DNA from: a bacterium
Lineage (GTDB): Bacteria; Patescibacteriota; Patescibacteriia; S139-126
Direction of reading: 5' to 3'
Length of the DNA: 40,316 nt
Assembly: GCA_030666865.1 (NCBI GenBank)
Contig: DAOUWZ010000009.1
Span: 1-40,316, forward strand
Shown here: piece after piece, positions 731 through 37,019 of the stretch
How the letters are laid out: each line of letters starts with the position of its first letter
Position numbering within the stretch: the first letter of the stretch is position 1
Position numbers and translations under genes: made by a program
Notes under the pieces: model-generated
The model's input: only the letters and a program-made list of their open reading frames with translations
What the model was told of the DNA's origin: nothing
Databases searched by the model: none

Positions 731-867
731 TATATTTATATCAAAACTAAAAATGTAAAAATAAAAATGATAATTAATTAAATAAATTCTAATATCCAAA
801 TAAACTGTTAAAAATCCAAATTAGAAAGCTCAAATATCAATTCAAATCCAAATAATTAAATACTAAG

Positions 868-1251
868 TTAATCGCCTTTCTTGTTTTTACTGCTTAAAAT
901 AATTTTTGAAAATATTAATGTTAATTCTTGAGCTTCTTGCCATAAATTCCTAGTCTTTTCTTTAAAATCTGAATTTGCCTTAATAATCATTCTTAACCAA
1001 TGTTTTGTTTCTTTGGCTTCTTTTTTACATATTGCTATTTTATGTTGAAAATCTTTTTTTGATTCTGCTCCATCTGCTTCTGCATAGTTTGCCCCAATAC
1101 TGGTAGCTGATCGTATTACTTGACTAATCAAAGGTCTATTAATTTCATTTCTTGGTAATTGTTTTACAAAATCTATTATATTTTCTCCAAACCTAGCTGT
1201 TCTTTCTTCTAGATCATATTTTACATTTGGATTTTGAGCTTGATTTGGCAT
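868..1251 (-). CDS. Four helix bundle protein (23S rRNA intervening-sequence/S23 family)
   Basis: YDLEERTARFGE..IGANYAEADGAESKKDFQHKIAICKKEAKETKHWLRM signature of the IVP/four helix bundle family. Confidence 0.85.
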   Translation of the reverse strand: MPNQAQNPNVKYDLEERTARFGENIIDFVKQLPRNEINRPLISQVIRSATSIGANYAEADGAESKKDFQHKIAICKKEAKETKHWLRMIIKANSDFKEKTRNLWQEAQELTLIFSKIILSSKNKKGD

Positions 1252-1330
1252 TTGGATTTTGTAATTTAGGTTTGGATGTTTATTATTTTATTTTTGATGT
1301 CAGCCTCGTCAGCTAGACGGGTTTGATTTA

Positions 1331-1889: not shown

Positions 1890-3158
1890 CTAATACTTCA
1901 TCTCTTTATTCAAATCTGTTATTTTCTCAAATTCCAACAAAGATAAGGTTTCTGTTCCAGCGCTAGTTTTAATGTCAATCACCCTACTGATTGATTTTCC
2001 GGTCTCCATACTTTCTCTGCCAATATCAACATACAATTTATAAAGCGGCGACTGGCGCCAGGCTTTTATACCCTCTACTTTCTTTATAAAAGATTCCTCA
2101 CCCAAAGCATCAACTTTTTCTTTTATCATTTTAATATTATCCAAAGAATTTGTCCCGGCTCTTCTTAGTTCTGAAATGCCCAAATATCTCAACTCGTCTA
2201 TTGGACTTCTTAAATGCGAAACTTGCCGGACATCCTCCATCTTTGGTCTTGGAGAATCTGACACTGTTTTTCGTATTACTCCGGAAGAACCAATTGTATC
2301 TTTCTTGATATCCAAATCTTCTTTCGGTTTAATAGTTGGCTGCTCAATCAATTGTGAAATTTCCGGGGCTTTGGTTAATTCTGGCTTTTCTTCTTCCAGT
2401 TGATCCGCCAGTTCTTCATGATAATCAACTTTTTTATCTAAATCTTCTGCTTCTTCTTCATCTTTTTTTGAAAAATCATAAATATCCTCTGACTGTTTAA
2501 TTAATTTATCAAGCTCTGTCTCTGGTTGTTTTGACTTATTTTCAGCTTCAATAATTTTCAATTTTTCTTCCATCAATAAAATCAATTTATCAGCATCTCC
2601 TTCGGAAAAACCTAATCCCCCTTCCGCTACCCGACGAACCAATACACTTTTGGTATCAGGTTTCTCACGCACATGTTTCAATCTAGCTAAAACAACATTT
2701 TTCAATTTGTTTTTTACCGCTTCATCATTTAATTGCAATCCGCTTTCTAATATCACTGCTTCTACATAAATTCCAAGATCAACCGCAGCTGATATGCTTT
2801 TGGCTGTAGCGATTTTTTGCACCTCTTCTTCATCTTCAGTATTGAAATAAAAAGCCGCGCCACTATCCTTGTGCCAAGGAGCAGGTGCTGGTGGAGCTAA
2901 TCTATCTTCTACCGGTTCTTTTGGTATTAAACCTTCTTCATCAAACAACTTTTCTTCCAGAACAGGTTGTTTAGTTTCAATTCGTTGTTTAGGTATTTCG
3001 GTGTCAGTAATCTTTTCACCATCAAATTTTTTCAATTGTCCGCCGATCAAAACTTTGTACGAACCATCTTTATCTTTGACAACGATTTCGTCAGACACAT
3101 CGAAATCTAATTTATCTTTCTCGGTTTGCTCATCTAAATTGTTTGGGTTGTCTGTCAT
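1890..3158 (-). CDS. Hypothetical acidic protein in the T4SS-like operon
   Basis: Long ORF, Glu/Asp/Lys-rich, co-oriented with PrgI and TrbL-like genes. Confidence 0.65.
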   Translation of the reverse strand: MTDNPNNLDEQTEKDKLDFDVSDEIVVKDKDGSYKVLIGGQLKKFDGEKITDTEIPKQRIETKQPVLEEKLFDEEGLIPKEPVEDRLAPPAPAPWHKDSGAAFYFNTEDEEEVQKIATAKSISAAVDLGIYVEAVILESGLQLNDEAVKNKLKNVVLARLKHVREKPDTKSVLVRRVAEGGLGFSEGDADKLILLMEEKLKIIEAENKSKQPETELDKLIKQSEDIYDFSKKDEEEAEDLDKKVDYHEELADQLEEEKPELTKAPEISQLIEQPTIKPKEDLDIKKDTIGSSGVIRKTVSDSPRPKMEDVRQVSHLRSPIDELRYLGISELRRAGTNSLDNIKMIKEKVDALGEESFIKKVEGIKAWRQSPLYKLYVDIGRESMETGKSISRVIDIKTSAGTETLSLLEFEKITDLNKEMKY

Positions 3159-3196
3159 ATTATTTTATATAAATTTATATAATTTCTAATTAACCT

Positions 3197-3679
3197 AATT
3201 ATTCTAATTTCTAATCAATCACCAACAATCAAACTCCAAAATACCACACCTCCCTTTCAGTTAATTCATTGCAATATAATTTATTTTAACTTATTTCTAA
3301 TAGAATTAAAAATTAAATTCAATTCTTTTGCCTCCTGCCACAATACTCTAGCTTCATCTTTTAATTCAGCAACTGCTACACTTGTCATTCTTAACCAATG
3401 CTTTGTTTCTCTAGCTTCTTTCTTACAAATCCCAATCTTATGATTAAAGTCCTTTTTAGATTCAGCGTCATCAGCTTCACAATAATTAGCTCCTACACTA
3501 GTACCTGCCTTTACAAGTTGATTGATAATTGACATAGTAACTGTATTTTTTGGTATTTTTTTAGAAAACTTAATAATTTCTTCACCAAATCTAGCTGTTC
3601 TTTCTTCTAAATCATATTTTCTACCTCCCTCCTCCTTGGTCATTGATGTTTGATTAGATCAATTAGAAATTAGGTAATT
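3197..3679. mobile_element. Four-helix-bundle cassette bounded by imperfect inverted repeats
   Basis: AATTATTCTAATTTCTAATCAATCACCAACAATCAAAC (3197-3234) is an imperfect inverse of GTTTGATTAGATCAATTAGAAATTAGGTAATT (3648-3679); the ORF 3281-3643 lies between. Confidence 0.5.
3281..3643 (-). CDS. Four helix bundle protein (second paralogue)
   Basis: Same YDLEERTARFGEEII...SVGANYCEADDAESKKDFNHKIGICKKEARETKHWLRM signature as 868-1251. Confidence 0.85.
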   Translation of the reverse strand: MTKEEGGRKYDLEERTARFGEEIIKFSKKIPKNTVTMSIINQLVKAGTSVGANYCEADDAESKKDFNHKIGICKKEARETKHWLRMTSVAVAELKDEARVLWQEAKELNLIFNSIRNKLK

Positions 3680-3725
3680 ACCTGCCTGCCGACAGGCAGG
3701 AAAATTTTATTCTTTTATTCCCAAA

Positions 3726-18655: not shown

Positions 18656-19495
18656 TTATAATTTTTTATAATATCCTTTTTGCACCAATTCCAATATTAA
18701 CTTCTCCCAATCATCAATACTCAATTCTTGCGCTCTGATTTTCTCGGACAAATCTATCTTTTGTAATACACCTCTAAATTCTTTTTTATCTTTTTGAAAC
18801 CCTGAAAATAAATTATGTACCAAGGTCTTTCTTTTGCCGGAAAAACCAATTTTTACTGTCTGCCAAAATCTTTTTTCTGCCTGTTTGTCTGAAGCCGGCT
18901 TAATATCACTAACTCGCAAAATAGCTGAGTCAACTTTTGGTACAGGGAAAAAACTATCAGCACTGACATCTGAAACCTTCTCCGACCTGCCATAATACTG
19001 AATGGATAATGATAATAAACTATGCTTGCCTGGCCCAGCGCATATTCTGTCTGCCACCTCTTTTTGCACTAAAACCACCAAAGATTGTGGGGGATACTCA
19101 CTACTTAAAAATTTTTTAAAAATCTTACCAGTTAGATGATAAGGTAAATTCGCTACCAATTTATAACTATCAACTAATTCAGATTCGTCAAAGCCCAATA
19201 CATTTTTATTGATAATTTTTAAATTAGCATATTGCTTTGCTAATTTATTTAATAAAAAAACCAACCTATCGTCAACCTCAACGGCAACAACCAACTCGGC
19301 TTTAGCTAATAATCTAGTTGTCAAAAAACCAAGACCTGGTCCAATTTCTAAAACAACATCGGACTTATTTATGGATGCGCTTTCAACGATAGCATCATAA
19401 ACTTTTTCATTAATCAAAAAATTCTGACTTTTGGCATTATCAGGAACAAGATGATTTTGTTTTAACAAATCTTTAGTTGTTTTTAATAAATCCAC
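18656..19495 (-). CDS. rsmA: 16S rRNA (adenine(1518)-N6/adenine(1519)-N6) dimethyltransferase
   Basis: QNFLINEKVYDAIVESA...VLEIGPGLGFLTTRLL...VANLPYHLTGKIF; KsgA/RsmA family. Confidence 0.93.
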   Translation of the reverse strand: MDLLKTTKDLLKQNHLVPDNAKSQNFLINEKVYDAIVESASINKSDVVLEIGPGLGFLTTRLLAKAELVVAVEVDDRLVFLLNKLAKQYANLKIINKNVLGFDESELVDSYKLVANLPYHLTGKIFKKFLSSEYPPQSLVVLVQKEVADRICAGPGKHSLLSLSIQYYGRSEKVSDVSADSFFPVPKVDSAILRVSDIKPASDKQAEKRFWQTVKIGFSGKRKTLVHNLFSGFQKDKKEFRGVLQKIDLSEKIRAQELSIDDWEKLILELVQKGYYKKL

Positions 19496-19577
19496 CTATT
19501 TAGTTATTAGGTGTTAGTGATTAGTTATTAGGATCTGAAAAATTATTATTTACAACCTAAAACCTAATCACTAAAAC

Positions 19578-20168
19578 CTATAACCTGATACCTCCTTGTC
19601 GAAAAATTTTTATTTTTCCATCATCTAAACCAATAATAGTAGATGGCTGTTTCTTTTTAATTTTTCCGCTATTAATAATAATATCTGGTTTAATTTTTCT
19701 TTTCTTAAAATTGTTAACCACCTCTTTGCCAGAATATAGCTCGCCTTGCCCAGATACATTAGCGCTGGTAGCTGTTAAAGGCCTACCTAACTTCCTAGCT
19801 AATAATCTCAATAATTTGTCACTACTTACCCGAACAACTAAAGTATTGTTCGTTTTTGGCACTTTTATATTATTTCTAACTTTAAACGCTATAGCTAGTG
19901 GTCCTGGCCAATATTTTTTTGCTAATTGTAATAATACGTTAGGCACAAAAAAATATTTTTTGACTTGATAAATAGAAGAGCAAATTAAAGGAAATGATTT
20001 ATCAAATTTTCTACCTTTTATTTGATAAACTTTTTCAACTGCAGATTTATTAGTACTGTCAGTAATTAATCCATAAGCTGTCTCTGTCGGCATAGCTAAA
20101 ACTCTGCCCTTTTCAAGAGTTTTAACCAAATAATCTATATCAATTTGCCTAGCGTCAATGATTTCCAT
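19578..20168 (-). CDS. tsaC: L-threonylcarbamoyladenylate synthase (Sua5/YciO/YrdC domain)
   Basis: GRVLAMPTETAYGLITD...VYQIKGRKFDKSFPLI...KYWPGPLAIAF...TATSANVSGQ. Confidence 0.88.
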   Translation of the reverse strand: MEIIDARQIDIDYLVKTLEKGRVLAMPTETAYGLITDSTNKSAVEKVYQIKGRKFDKSFPLICSSIYQVKKYFFVPNVLLQLAKKYWPGPLAIAFKVRNNIKVPKTNNTLVVRVSSDKLLRLLARKLGRPLTATSANVSGQGELYSGKEVVNNFKKRKIKPDIIINSGKIKKKQPSTIIGLDDGKIKIFRQGGIRL

Positions 20169-21532: not shown

Positions 21533-24500
21533 TTATTTAATAACTATATTAACCAATCTTTTTGATATATATATTTTTTTAATTACTTCTTTATTGTCAG
21601 TAAATTTTTTTACATTATTTTGATCAAGCGCCAAAGCAAAAACTTTTTCTTCATCCAAATCAATCGGTATTATTATTTTCGCTCTTAATCTGCCATTAAC
21701 CTGAATAGCTATTTCTACTTCTTCTTCTACAATCTTAGTTTCATCCCAAACAGGCCATTCTTGTTGACAGATTAATCCTGTTCCGCTAACTTTTTCCCAT
21801 AATTCTTCAGAAATATGAGGAGCAAAAGGATCCAGAATTTTTAACAAACCTTCTACATTAACCTGTTTAAATTTCTTGATTTTGGTCATTTGATTAACCA
21901 AAATCATCATAGCTGAAATTGCCGTATTAAACTTCATAGTTTCTATATCAAGAGTTACTTTTTTGATTGTCTGATGAAAAAGTTTCTCCATATCATTGCT
22001 AGAATCTTCTGGTTTATTATTATCTAGCCATTCACCTATAACAAGCCAAACCTTTTCCAAAAATCTTCTTACGCCAATTATCCCTGAAGTTGACCATGGT
22101 TTTGAATCTTCCAAAGGTCCCATGAACATTTCATAAACTCTGATAGTATCTGCTCCATACTCGGCAATCACTTCATCAGGATTTATCACATTACCTTTGG
22201 ACTTTGACATTTTTTGATTATCCTCTCCTAATATCATCCCTTGATTCCTCAATTTTAAAAACGGTTCATCAAATTGCAAATAACCAAAATCATTTAAAGC
22301 TTTGGTAAAAAATCTAGAAAATAATAAATGACCGTTAGCGTGTTCAGCCCCGCCAATATAAGTATCAACTGGCAGCCATTTATTAATAAGTTTTTGGCTG
22401 AATGGTTCTGAATCATTATTTGGATTTGCATACCTAAGATAATACCAAGATGAACAAACAAAAGTATCCATCGTATCTGATTCACGCCTGGCTGATTGGC
22501 CGCATTTTGGACACTTAACTCGGTGAAATTCCTTTGAACTTTTTAAGGGTGACTCGCCAGTTGGTTTAAAATCAACATCTTCTGGCAATTTTACTGGTAA
22601 ATCTTTTTCTGGCACAGCTACTTCGCCGCACTGGGCACAATAAATAATAGGAATTGGTGTTCCCCAATATCTTTGCCTGGAAATCAGCCAATCTCGCAAC
22701 CGATACTGTGTCTGCATCTTTCCACCAATCTTTTTGGTAATTTTTTTCATCGCTGTCTTATTATCAAGTCCGTCAAATTTATCTGAATTTATCATTTTAC
22801 CTTCCGCTTCATAAGCTTGCTTAGTTAACTCATCTAATAAATCCAAAAATTCAACCATATCTCTCGTAGATTTATTAAAATGTCCTTTATTCTTATAGAG
22901 ATGGTTTATCGGTTTTAGATCTTGAAATAGTTTCAAAACATTAAATGGAATATATGTGTCATCCTCGGATAAATATAAATGAATTTCTTTTACTAATTGA
23001 TTAATTTGAGATGCGTCATAACCTGCATTAGTCACTTTCTTAATACATTCGCATTGTCCTTTTTCATGAGTTTCCTCTATTTGTTGCCAATCCATTTTAC
23101 TATGAGTCGGTGCAATTAAATATAGCTTACTTACATTAATTTTATTATTCTGAATAAATTGCAAAGCCGTTGGACAACCCAAACTATGTCCAATAATAAT
23201 AAACTCCCCGCTAATTTCCTTGATAATTTTTTGTAGATGCTTTAACCACAGTCTCAATTGAGGATTTCTACTATCAGGCATATTTGGAACAATTACATTA
23301 AATCCTTGCTTTTCCAACTCGTCTTTTAGCCACGGATACCAATTTTTTTTACTATGACCTTCAGTGCCATGAAGAATCAAAACTGTTTTCTGTTTTTCTG
23401 ATTTAATAACAGGTATAATTTCAAGTCCAAAGTTTTTTGCAAATTCAAAATCCCTTTGATCATGAGCGGGCACCGCCATGATGGCCCCAGTACCATAAGT
23501 CATCATTACATAGTCTGCTATATAAATCGGAATTTCTTTTTGGTTGGCTGGATTTATTGCCTTGACACCTTTTAATTCTACTCCGGTTTTTTCTTTAGCA
23601 AGGTCGGTTCTCTGCAACTCAGTTTTTTTCTTAGTATCTGTAATATATTTTTCAACTTCAGCAATATTTTTGATTTTTGATTTTTGATTTTTGATTTTGA
23701 GGAGTGAAACGACGAAATCATGCTCCGGCGCCAATACCATATAAGTAGCGCCATAAATCGTATCCGGCCTGGTAGTAAAAACTTCTATATATACTTCTTT
23801 TTTATTCTTTAATCTTAAATCTTTAATCTTAAATCTGAGCATCGCTCCTTCACTTTTACCAATCCAGTTTTTTTGAGAAAGTTTTATTGGCTCAGGCCAG
23901 TCAAGTTGATCAAGCCCGGCTAATAACTTTTCGACATAAGCTGTTATCTTGAAAAACCATTGTTCCAAGTCTTTCTGTAAAACTTCACTGTCGCATCGTT
24001 CACATTTATTATCTATCACCTGTTCATTAGCAAGAACCGTCTTGCACGATTCGCACCAATTGACTTTGGCTTTCTTTTTATAAGCAAGTCCATGTTTATA
24101 CATTTGTAAAAACATCCACTGAGTCCATTTGTAATATTCGGGCGCAGAAGTATTAATTTCCCTAGACCAATCATAAGAAAATCCGAGCGACTTAATCTGC
24201 TTAGTAAAATTTTTGATATTCTCCTGAGTAGTCTCGCGTGGCGGCACTCCCTGTTGAATCGCATAATTTTCTGCTGGCAAGCCAAAAGCATCCCAACCAA
24301 TCGGGTTCATAATATTATATCCCTTCATCTTCATATACCTAACTATAATATCAAGAGCGGTATAACTCTCTGGATGCCCAACATGAAGACCTTGACCTGA
24401 AGGATATGGAAACATTGTCAAACCATAAAACTTTTTCTTAGCCGAATTGTCATCAGCTTCAAAAACCTTTTCCTTTTCCCAAACATTCTGCCATTTGAAC

Positions 24501-24535
24501 TCTATTTTTTTGTGATCGTAATATTTTTCTGCCAT
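21533..24535 (-). CDS. leuS: Leucyl-tRNA synthetase with an inserted alpha/beta hydrolase domain
   Basis: HVGH motif (PYPSGQGLHVGHPESYTA), editing-domain TTRPDTIYGATYMVLAPEH, RQRYWGTPIPIIYC, KMSKSKGN. Extra ~190 aa between HDQRDFEFAKNFGLEIIPVI and AYEAEGKMINSDKFDGL. Confidence 0.96.
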   Translation of the reverse strand: MAEKYYDHKKIEFKWQNVWEKEKVFEADDNSAKKKFYGLTMFPYPSGQGLHVGHPESYTALDIIVRYMKMKGYNIMNPIGWDAFGLPAENYAIQQGVPPRETTQENIKNFTKQIKSLGFSYDWSREINTSAPEYYKWTQWMFLQMYKHGLAYKKKAKVNWCESCKTVLANEQVIDNKCERCDSEVLQKDLEQWFFKITAYVEKLLAGLDQLDWPEPIKLSQKNWIGKSEGAMLRFKIKDLRLKNKKEVYIEVFTTRPDTIYGATYMVLAPEHDFVVSLLKIKNQKSKIKNIAEVEKYITDTKKKTELQRTDLAKEKTGVELKGVKAINPANQKEIPIYIADYVMMTYGTGAIMAVPAHDQRDFEFAKNFGLEIIPVIKSEKQKTVLILHGTEGHSKKNWYPWLKDELEKQGFNVIVPNMPDSRNPQLRLWLKHLQKIIKEISGEFIIIGHSLGCPTALQFIQNNKINVSKLYLIAPTHSKMDWQQIEETHEKGQCECIKKVTNAGYDASQINQLVKEIHLYLSEDDTYIPFNVLKLFQDLKPINHLYKNKGHFNKSTRDMVEFLDLLDELTKQAYEAEGKMINSDKFDGLDNKTAMKKITKKIGGKMQTQYRLRDWLISRQRYWGTPIPIIYCAQCGEVAVPEKDLPVKLPEDVDFKPTGESPLKSSKEFHRVKCPKCGQSARRESDTMDTFVCSSWYYLRYANPNNDSEPFSQKLINKWLPVDTYIGGAEHANGHLLFSRFFTKALNDFGYLQFDEPFLKLRNQGMILGEDNQKMSKSKGNVINPDEVIAEYGADTIRVYEMFMGPLEDSKPWSTSGIIGVRRFLEKVWLVIGEWLDNNKPEDSSNDMEKLFHQTIKKVTLDIETMKFNTAISAMMILVNQMTKIKKFKQVNVEGLLKILDPFAPHISEELWEKVSGTGLICQQEWPVWDETKIVEEEVEIAIQVNGRLRAKIIIPIDLDEEKVFALALDQNNVKKFTDNKEVIKKIYISKRLVNIVIK
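22825..23405 (-). other. RBBP9/YdeN-like serine alpha/beta hydrolase domain embedded in leuS
   Basis: KTVLILHGTEGHSKKNWYPWLKDELEKQGFNVIVPNMPDSRNP...IIIGHSLGCPTAL...LYLSEDDTYIPF...KNKGHFN: GHSLG nucleophile elbow, Asp and His candidates present. Confidence 0.88.
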
Positions 24536-24841
24536 ATTTTTAAACAAAGTAATTATAATCTATCATTAATAACCTTTTTTTTCAACCCAATCTCTATATT
24601 ACAACCACTCAATCTACTACTTATTTACTTAATTTTTAAATTACTTAATTACTATCATATTGACTAAAATAGCTTAATTATATATTATATAAATTGATGA
24701 AAATCAATAAAATATATTTGTAGGTATTATCTAAAAATTGGAAAATACACAAAAATTATTGATAATAAATACATATATATTAAGAGGAAAAATTTTATTC
24801 CAAAACCTATCAAAAATTTTATTCTAATAATTTCAGTTAAT

Positions 24842-26142: not shown

Positions 26143-26220
26143 AACAAAATCTAAATATCAAATCAAGCTCAAAATCCAAATGCTAAATAAATTTGACATT
26201 TAATTATTTGGATTTGAATT
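26143..26220 (+). repeat. MITE-like internally deleted copy of the four-helix-bundle cassette (compare 839-1260)
   Basis: 26159-26182 identical (24 nt) to the 5' end of ORF 868-1251; 26198-26220 identical (23 nt) to its downstream flank 839-861; same relative order and orientation. Confidence 0.85.
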
Positions 26221-35124: not shown

Positions 35125-35389
35125 ATTCTAAGTGTAAGTGCATATTCTAAAACAAATAAATTTAATAAATAATACATTTTAAACCAGATTCGCCCCTCTG
35201 CCTGCCCGCCGTATTGGAGGGACAAGGGGGAATTCCTGCCTGCCGGCAGGCAGGAAAGGGGGTTTTGGAGGTTGTTTAACATTACTTAACCCCCTAAATC
35301 CCCCTTAACAGGGGGACTTACCTAGTTCAATATTTTACTAATATTAATAAATAATTACGCATATAATTATTATGCACTTAGTGTAGAAT
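35125..35389. repeat. Inverted-repeat-bounded repeat-rich intergenic region
   Basis: ATTCTAAGTGTAAGTGCATA (35125-35144) vs TATGCACTTAGTGTAGAAT (35371-35389); contains CCTGCCTGCCGGCAGGCAGG and CCCCCTTAACAGGGGG. Confidence 0.55.
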
Positions 35390-36620: not shown

Positions 36621-36671
36621 CCTGTAGCTCTCCGCCAGCTGGCGGAGGTAGAGCAACAGCCTTCTAAGCTT
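36621..36671 (+). pseudogene. Truncated tRNA-Arg(UCU)-like fragment with palindromic D-loop insertion
   Basis: TAGCTC-TCCGCCAGCTGGCGGA-GGTAGAGCAACAGCCTTCTAAGCT: D arm and anticodon arm recognisable, no T arm. Confidence 0.55.
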
Positions 36672-36678
36672 AAGAATT

Positions 36679-36936
36679 ATGTATTATGTTTATATATTAT
36701 TACTATCCAACAAGCAACTTTATACAGAATTTTGTGATAATATGGCAAGAAGATACAAAGAACATAAAAATGGTAAAGTAAAATCTACAAAATTAAGAAG
36801 ACCATTAAAACTAATACATTACGAAGCATATATATTAAAGAGTGATGCTATGAGGAGAGAAAAATTTCTTAAAACAACAGAAGGTAAAAAATTGCTAAGA
36901 CAACAATTAAGAAATATTTTAAATAATTTAATATAG
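36679..36936 (+). CDS. GIY-YIG nuclease-family (UPF0213-like) protein, possibly degenerate
   Basis: MYYVYILLLSNKQLYTEFCDNMARRYKEHKNGKVKSTKLRRPLKLIHYEAYILKSDAMRREKFLK. Confidence 0.75.
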   Translation: MYYVYILLLSNKQLYTEFCDNMARRYKEHKNGKVKSTKLRRPLKLIHYEAYILKSDAMRREKFLKTTEGKKLLRQQLRNILNNLI

Positions 36937-36944
36937 TATATTAC

Positions 36945-37019
36945 GCTCCGGTAGTTCAACGGATAGAACACGGGCCTTCTAAGCCTGTAATGGGGGTTCG
37001 ATTCCCTCCCGGAGCACCA
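36945..37019 (+). tRNA. tRNA-Arg(UCU), CCA encoded
   Basis: GCTCCGG acceptor paired with CCGGAGC, TCT anticodon in CTTCTAA loop, GGTTCGATTCC T arm, ACCA end. Confidence 0.95.

Follow-up and report, generated by a model that had tools for sequence, protein, structure and literature searches.

Inverted heptamer arms around S23 genes and a probable ORF-less derivative in a Patescibacteria genome

The question raised by this locus is whether a short intergenic sequence at positions 26143–26220 is a trace of a mobile unit built around a four-helix-bundle gene. The window, meaning the whole 40,316-nt stretch of DNA that was analysed, is contig C12 of a 1.09-Mb, 55-contig genome (the host); the two nearest relatives compared belong to the same family. 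Its close S23 relatives in a scan of public genomes are CPR/Patescibacteria MAGs, and the host is read as a member of this group. The four-helix-bundle genes concerned encode S23 ('four helix bundle protein'), which is among the commonest uncharacterized bacterial proteins.

The window element and the S23 genes of the host

The features of the window are as follows.

26143–26220, plus strand: ORF-less derivative of the S23a unit (left arm 26143–26182, 15-nt spacer 26183–26197, truncated right arm 26198–26220)
868–1251, minus strand: S23a ORF (TIGR02436/PF05635, four helix bundle, 127 aa), the full-length relative
1224–1290, minus strand: left arm of the S23a unit (CAAATCC/CAAATGC heptamers), overlapping the ORF start
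781–861, minus strand: right arm of the S23a unit, inverted
3281–3643, minus strand: S23b ORF (TIGR02436), second unit of the same operon
3644–3681, minus strand: left arm of the S23b unit (CTAATTT/CTAATTG type)
3188–3226, minus strand: right arm of the S23b unit, inverted
1767–1889, unstranded: ORF-less heptamer hairpin of the TCAAAAT type, between ORF 1890–3158 and the PrgI gene (1331–1765)
19497–19586, unstranded: ORF-less heptamer hairpin of the TAGGTNN type, between ORFs 18656–19495 and 19578–20168

Both window ORFs belong to the S23 family, scoring 86.6 and 76.9 bits against TIGR02436, for which the curated cut-off is 24. Profile matches of S23 were obtained to PDB entries 2gsc (XCC0516) and 2rld, XCC0516 being a solved S23 protein from Xanthomonas campestris. 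The host genome has four S23 genes, and at each of them the short A/T-rich repeats on one side return in inverted form on the other. The RNA fold of the hairpin at 19497–19586 has a z value of −4.8.

The window element had been described in the original prediction as two blocks from the ends of ORF 868–1251, and in this the prediction was borne out. Block 1, CAAATCAAGCTCAAAATCCAAATG, said to be the 24-nt start of that ORF, was located by a pattern search of the host genome at 26159–26182(+) and, as an exact match, at 1224–1247(−), where its first base is base 5 of the ORF. The genome-wide search for block 1 that had been proposed gave three copies in all, dispersed and each part of S23a ends, the third (C32:13876–13899, minus strand) with one mismatch; the reversed-pattern control gave 0 matches in the host genome. 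The three transitions noted ahead of block 1 are present, with a T/A difference slightly further out, and one of them changes ATG to ATA, so that the window copy has lost the start codon. Block 2, ATTTAATTATTTGGATTTGAATT, at 26198–26220, taken to be the downstream flank of the same ORF, is identical to that region at 23 of 23 positions. Order and orientation are likewise retained, with the spacer of 15 nt in place of the gene. The right arm of the window copy ends at the palindromic repeat CCTGCCTGCCGG, and the RNA fold of this copy is only modestly more stable than shuffled sequences give (z −1.7).

Another contig carries a further ORF-less element, about 130 nt long (C32:13838–13911 with its flanks), in which both S23a-unit arms are complete, including the whole right arm (alignment scores 86 and 81). 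A remnant at C32:35497–35544 consists of the left arm and approximately the first dozen codons of an S23 unit located 1.2 kb away (51-nt alignment, score 72), with the right arm absent. The window element is probably a copy of an S23 unit that lacks the ORF and is non-autonomous. The string AAATCCAAATG, which had been put forward as the footprint of the unit, proved to be a poor marker: it is one of many clade-specific heptamers, and the true footprint is the heptamer array. As a word marker AAATCCAAAT was rejected: the genome has it 39 times and its reversed control 12 times, and most hits are due to chance or lie in coding sequence.

Several further repeats were observed in the window. Inverted CAAAATG-type heptamer arrays at 8–51 and 738–775 surround a VirB4-like ORF (50–799) at the contig end. 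The palindrome CTGCCTGCCGGCAGGCAG is dispersed (3682, 8483, 11807, 18301, 20213, 26222 and 35198–35253), with 13 matches of its half-sites against 0.13 expected; it is found at the margins of heptamer hairpins or within their loops, and some ORFs translate it in frame as 'LPAGRQ'. The leucyl-tRNA synthetase ORF (21533–24547) contains a serine hydrolase domain (PF06821, residues 389–558) beside or inside the editing domain, and at 23657–23842 two near-perfect in-frame heptamer arrays (KIKNQKSKIKN and KIKDLRLKNKK) bracket the conserved TTRPDT region. A GIY-YIG ORF (36679–36936) lies just upstream of tRNA-Arg(TCT) (window 36625–37019), and the anticodon-region string 'ccttctaagc' is repeated ahead of it, as if the ORF had entered a tRNA gene. 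This ORF was considered as a second cargo and rejected, its flanks being read as no heptamer array.

Heptamer arms track the S23 protein clade

The main set comprised 93 S23 loci from the host and its relatives, about 40 candidate-phyla (CPR) genomes. Alignment of the four-helix-bundle loci with their flanks, as had been suggested, brought out inverted heptamer arms. The 5′ flank aligned with the reverse-complemented 3′ flank scored 36 in the median, compared with 18 for cross-locus pairs, and the inverted arms exceeded the 95% null level in 81 of the 93 loci. Period 7 was the best lag in 125/186 flanks and in 19/180 control stretches about 600 nt away. An independent set of 80 loci from public MAGs was collected by a GTDB genome scan with one S23 subclade; most of these MAGs are titled CPR/Patescibacteria and one is titled as an archaeal bin. 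Here period 7 was best in 153 of 158 arms, and within this subclade the own partner of an arm ranked first of 79 in 19 cases and among the top three in 39, so paired arms are alike beyond the common motif. Arms were alike in inverted orientation in 142 of 147 loci. The full unit is palindrome-like, with a degenerate 7-nt array on the left, the S23 gene, and the same array inverted. In co-directional gene pairs S23 is oriented in sense in 67 of 70 cases, a bias that may mean that the unit depends on being transcribed by the host or spreads at the RNA level.

The heptamer tracks the S23 protein clade and not the host genome. Across the 147 loci, the higher the S23 protein identity between loci of different genomes, the more similar their heptamers are, and this holds in one orientation only (Mantel r 0.53, with a maximum of 0.20 in 999 permutations); the 57-genome set alone gave r 0.26 against a permutation maximum of 0.10. 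Clade consensuses include NG[AT]ATT[AT], T[TA][TC][TAC]AAT, a TAGGTNN-like heptamer, ACATRTA and T[TC]AAAA[TG]. The window S23b falls in the T[TA][TC][TAC]AAT clade, and S23a, with its CAAATCC-type arms, is placed in the same protein group by locus L124. Distantly related S23 genes in one genome have no heptamer in common. Part of the coupling between protein and heptamer must be common descent. The original prediction spoke of the four-helix-bundle ORFs as cargo, a term that probably misleads: since S23 co-varies with the arms, it seems to be a functional part of the unit. Purifying selection on S23 (dN 0.11–0.25, dS at least 1.6 or saturated) fits such a part.

Heptamer arrays also depend on the presence of S23 in the genome. 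In stretches chosen without S23, and with N stretches left out of the counts, S23-free relatives had 0 arrays in 359 kb (11 genomes) and S23-rich genomes had 33 in 380 kb, from 10 of 14 genomes (Fisher p 0.0005); a repeated coding stretch in one genome (G034) accounts for three of the 33. In 432 kb sampled from the host genome 48 strict arrays were counted, compared with 3–6 in shuffles, these counts being lower bounds as the array thresholds were fixed and degenerate arms were missed. By a conservative test, 27 of these 48 are without a clear inverted partner within 600 nt. Because the arms are degenerate, hardly any of the heptamer hairpins were picked up by a strict hairpin scan (score at least 34).

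The same anatomy was seen in more distant bacteria. Among S23 genes of cyanobacterial and Azospirillum plasmids, 10 of 12 loci have inverted arms, including one octamer pair (some S23 units are built on 8-nt repeats); the arm heptamers include TAGGGAG, CAGGAGT, GGGTGTA and GAGGACGGATGACA. One Pseudanabaena S23 locus has direct, not inverted, arrays. Two Nostoc plasmids (400 kb) hold 47 heptamer arrays, and 15 of the 39 that are not beside S23 consist of an exact S23-arm heptamer (null mean 1.5, maximum 6, 500 draws). No match to S23 was found in phage records. On the Nostoc edaphicum plasmid pNe_5, an S23 unit was observed antisense between the genes for the ribonucleotide reductase β and α subunits.

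Empty, hairpin and filled junctions

Almost every relative with a match has the operon ORF1890–PrgI–VirB4 in a single copy, and the empty and filled sites that had been called for were found in it. Its gaps usually measure 6–95 nt, several being empty (e.g. in G002, G003, G017 and G041), and the junction that holds the hairpin at 1767–1889 in the window is only 6–95 nt in most relatives with a measurable gap. An S23 unit lies between PrgI and VirB4 in the host and between ORF1890 and PrgI in G001 and G040. ORF-less hairpins, most of them clearly heptameric, occur at these junctions in the host, G011, G014, G027 and G032. A clean comparison is between two members of one genus: G011 has a 90-nt heptamer hairpin that directly abuts the PrgI stop on one side and the VirB4 start on the other, and in G053 this junction is empty, the flanks being 76% and 82% identical. 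Target-site duplications had also been proposed as a check; none is visible at this one clean empty/filled junction, and the ends elsewhere are not sharply defined.

In rpsL–rpsG–fusA, one ORF-less family occupies the junction ahead of rpsL and both junctions that separate the genes, three in succession, as near-identical elements of 110–130 nt (84–87% identity to the middle copy); two further nearly full-length copies elsewhere are 69–74% identical. Between near-identical strains, no transposition event was seen.

Nature of the unit and comparison with known systems

S23 units are likely to constitute a widespread mobile unit with IVS-like anatomy and MITE-like derivatives, the window element included. 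The claim of a mobile unit with non-autonomous derivatives holds for the most part, and in wider form, as regards conserved inverted ends, ORF-less copies and site states; it is not supported by a target-site duplication at the one clean junction or by a mobilising enzyme. As for the label MITE, the window element resembles MITEs in being short and ORF-less with inverted ends from a longer unit, and inverted ends in common with a longer parent were found at two ORF-less sites. In the strict sense the label does not fit, as the parent encodes only S23/PF05635 and no transposase, and the ends vary between copies.

The 23S rRNA IVS of Coxiella burnetii (PMC4990558) resembles the units described here: its terminal inverted repeat encloses an S23 ORF in the loop. 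IVSs differ in being located in rRNA genes, whereas the present units lie between protein genes, many per genome, and have two arms that are both heptamer arrays, the heptamer being specific to the S23 clade. ORF-less short IVSs also exist. REP/REPIN elements with their RAYT (Y1) likewise combine a protein-coding unit with scattered ORF-less inverted-pair derivatives between genes, but S23, unlike RAYT, is a four-helix bundle without an HUH motif, and its arms are heptamer arrays, not one REP palindrome. Nor is Y1 (PF01797) tied to the repeats as in REPIN/RAYT systems, its ORFs being without heptamer arms (8 loci). The Avd protein of diversity-generating retroelements has a homologous four-helix-bundle fold (PMC10053308); unlike Avd, S23 had no linked reverse transcriptase at the loci examined.

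In the mechanism that we propose, the S23 protein, a pentamer in a solved relative, would recognise its own heptamer in DNA or RNA and hold the two arms together, and the unit and ORF-less arm pairs might thereby be copied or moved into intergenic gaps. Cutting and joining would probably be supplied by another enzyme, because S23 has, to our knowledge, no nuclease fold. Comparison of copy numbers with reverse transcriptases or Y1 transposases revealed no catalytic partner: as movers, reverse transcriptases were rejected since their numbers are uncorrelated with those of S23 (rho −0.13), and Y1 transposases showed a weak correlation (rho 0.33, p 0.013) and were also rejected. Five S23-rich genomes are without both enzymes, so neither is required in the same genome.

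Other explanations were weighed against a unit in which S23 takes part. It is possible, though unlikely, that the units are RNA-level parasites of the 23S rRNA IVS type, whose transcript stem is cut out by RNase III and which spread via RNA. The sense bias of S23 favours this, as do the Coxiella IVS, with its 28-bp terminal stem around the S23 ORF and heptamers before the start codon (PMC4990558), and the 23S_rRNA_IVP ORFs known in CPR rRNA insertions (PMC11270868). However, selection for an RNA stem was not evident as a G-U bias in the arm mismatches (135 compatible, 141 not), and the modest fold of the window copy, the independence of S23 numbers from reverse transcriptases and the antisense unit in Nostoc edaphicum also argue against it. 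It is very doubtful that Y1 (IS200/REP-type) transposases mobilise the units in trans, S23 riding along as a passenger: the hairpin arms and the weak correlation in numbers would suit it, but the Y1 ORFs are bare of heptamers, six genomes with at least three S23 genes have no Y1 match, and a passenger is not expected to co-vary with the arms.

The remaining readings involve no movement. Arrays might be regulatory or structural repeats that polymerase slippage lengthens and to which S23 binds as a host protein, with nothing mobile. Empty, hairpin and filled states at orthologous junctions make this improbable, as do the three sites that carry complete ends of one and the same S23 unit, the near-identical elements at successive operon junctions and the paired inverted arms around S23, even though it agrees with purifying selection on S23 and with the changes in repeat number, suggestive of slippage, that are reported for the Coxiella IVS. 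Rehm et al. found the positions of the Xanthomonas repeats to be mostly conserved between two species, with no link to mobile elements (PMC4692102), which also favours slippage. That the similarities arose by chance in A/T-rich intergenic DNA is practically negligible: the host sequence is indeed of low complexity and A/T-rich, but this reading is refuted by the reversed-pattern control, by the excess of arrays over shuffles and by the recurrence of this anatomy in cyanobacterial and Azospirillum DNA, which is richer in G/C.

Heptamer tandem repeats have long been used for strain typing and have been discussed as regulatory or G-quadruplex elements; we know of no origin given for them over decades. 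The STRR heptanucleotide repeats of cyanobacteria are, like the arrays described here, degenerate tandem heptanucleotides between genes. The GGGNATC repeats of Xanthomonas and GGGGA(C/T)T repeats of Nostoc are also intergenic, many of those in Xanthomonas forming close inverted pairs, and STRR, Xanthomonas and Nostoc repeats have been described as repeats of unknown origin (PMC4692102), those of Xanthomonas and Nostoc with no tie to mobile elements. No link between heptamer repeats and S23 was found in the open-access papers that were searched; a prior description elsewhere is possible. The broader reading has about an even chance of being right: S23 would be the repeat-reading component of a widespread, previously undescribed class of mobile elements with heptamer arms of their own, this class would be the source of the cyanobacterial (STRR), Xanthomonas and CPR repeats, and rRNA IVSs would be members that landed in rRNA genes. 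The match between arm heptamer and S23 type suggests an origin for the puzzling seven-letter repeats of cyanobacteria and other bacteria; once they are linked to a conserved protein, both where they come from and what they do can be put to a direct test. This link likewise offers a role for S23 and a pointer to what rRNA intervening sequences may be.

S23 was listed in 2013 as a cas-associated function (PMC3936711); this reported association with CRISPR may reflect insertion between cas genes. On plasmids of Pseudanabaena, Picosynechococcus and Anabaena (L289, L293 and L296), S23 genes with flanking repeats of 7 or 8 nt were observed among cas genes, between cas6 and cas4 in two different genera and between cas10 and cmr3.
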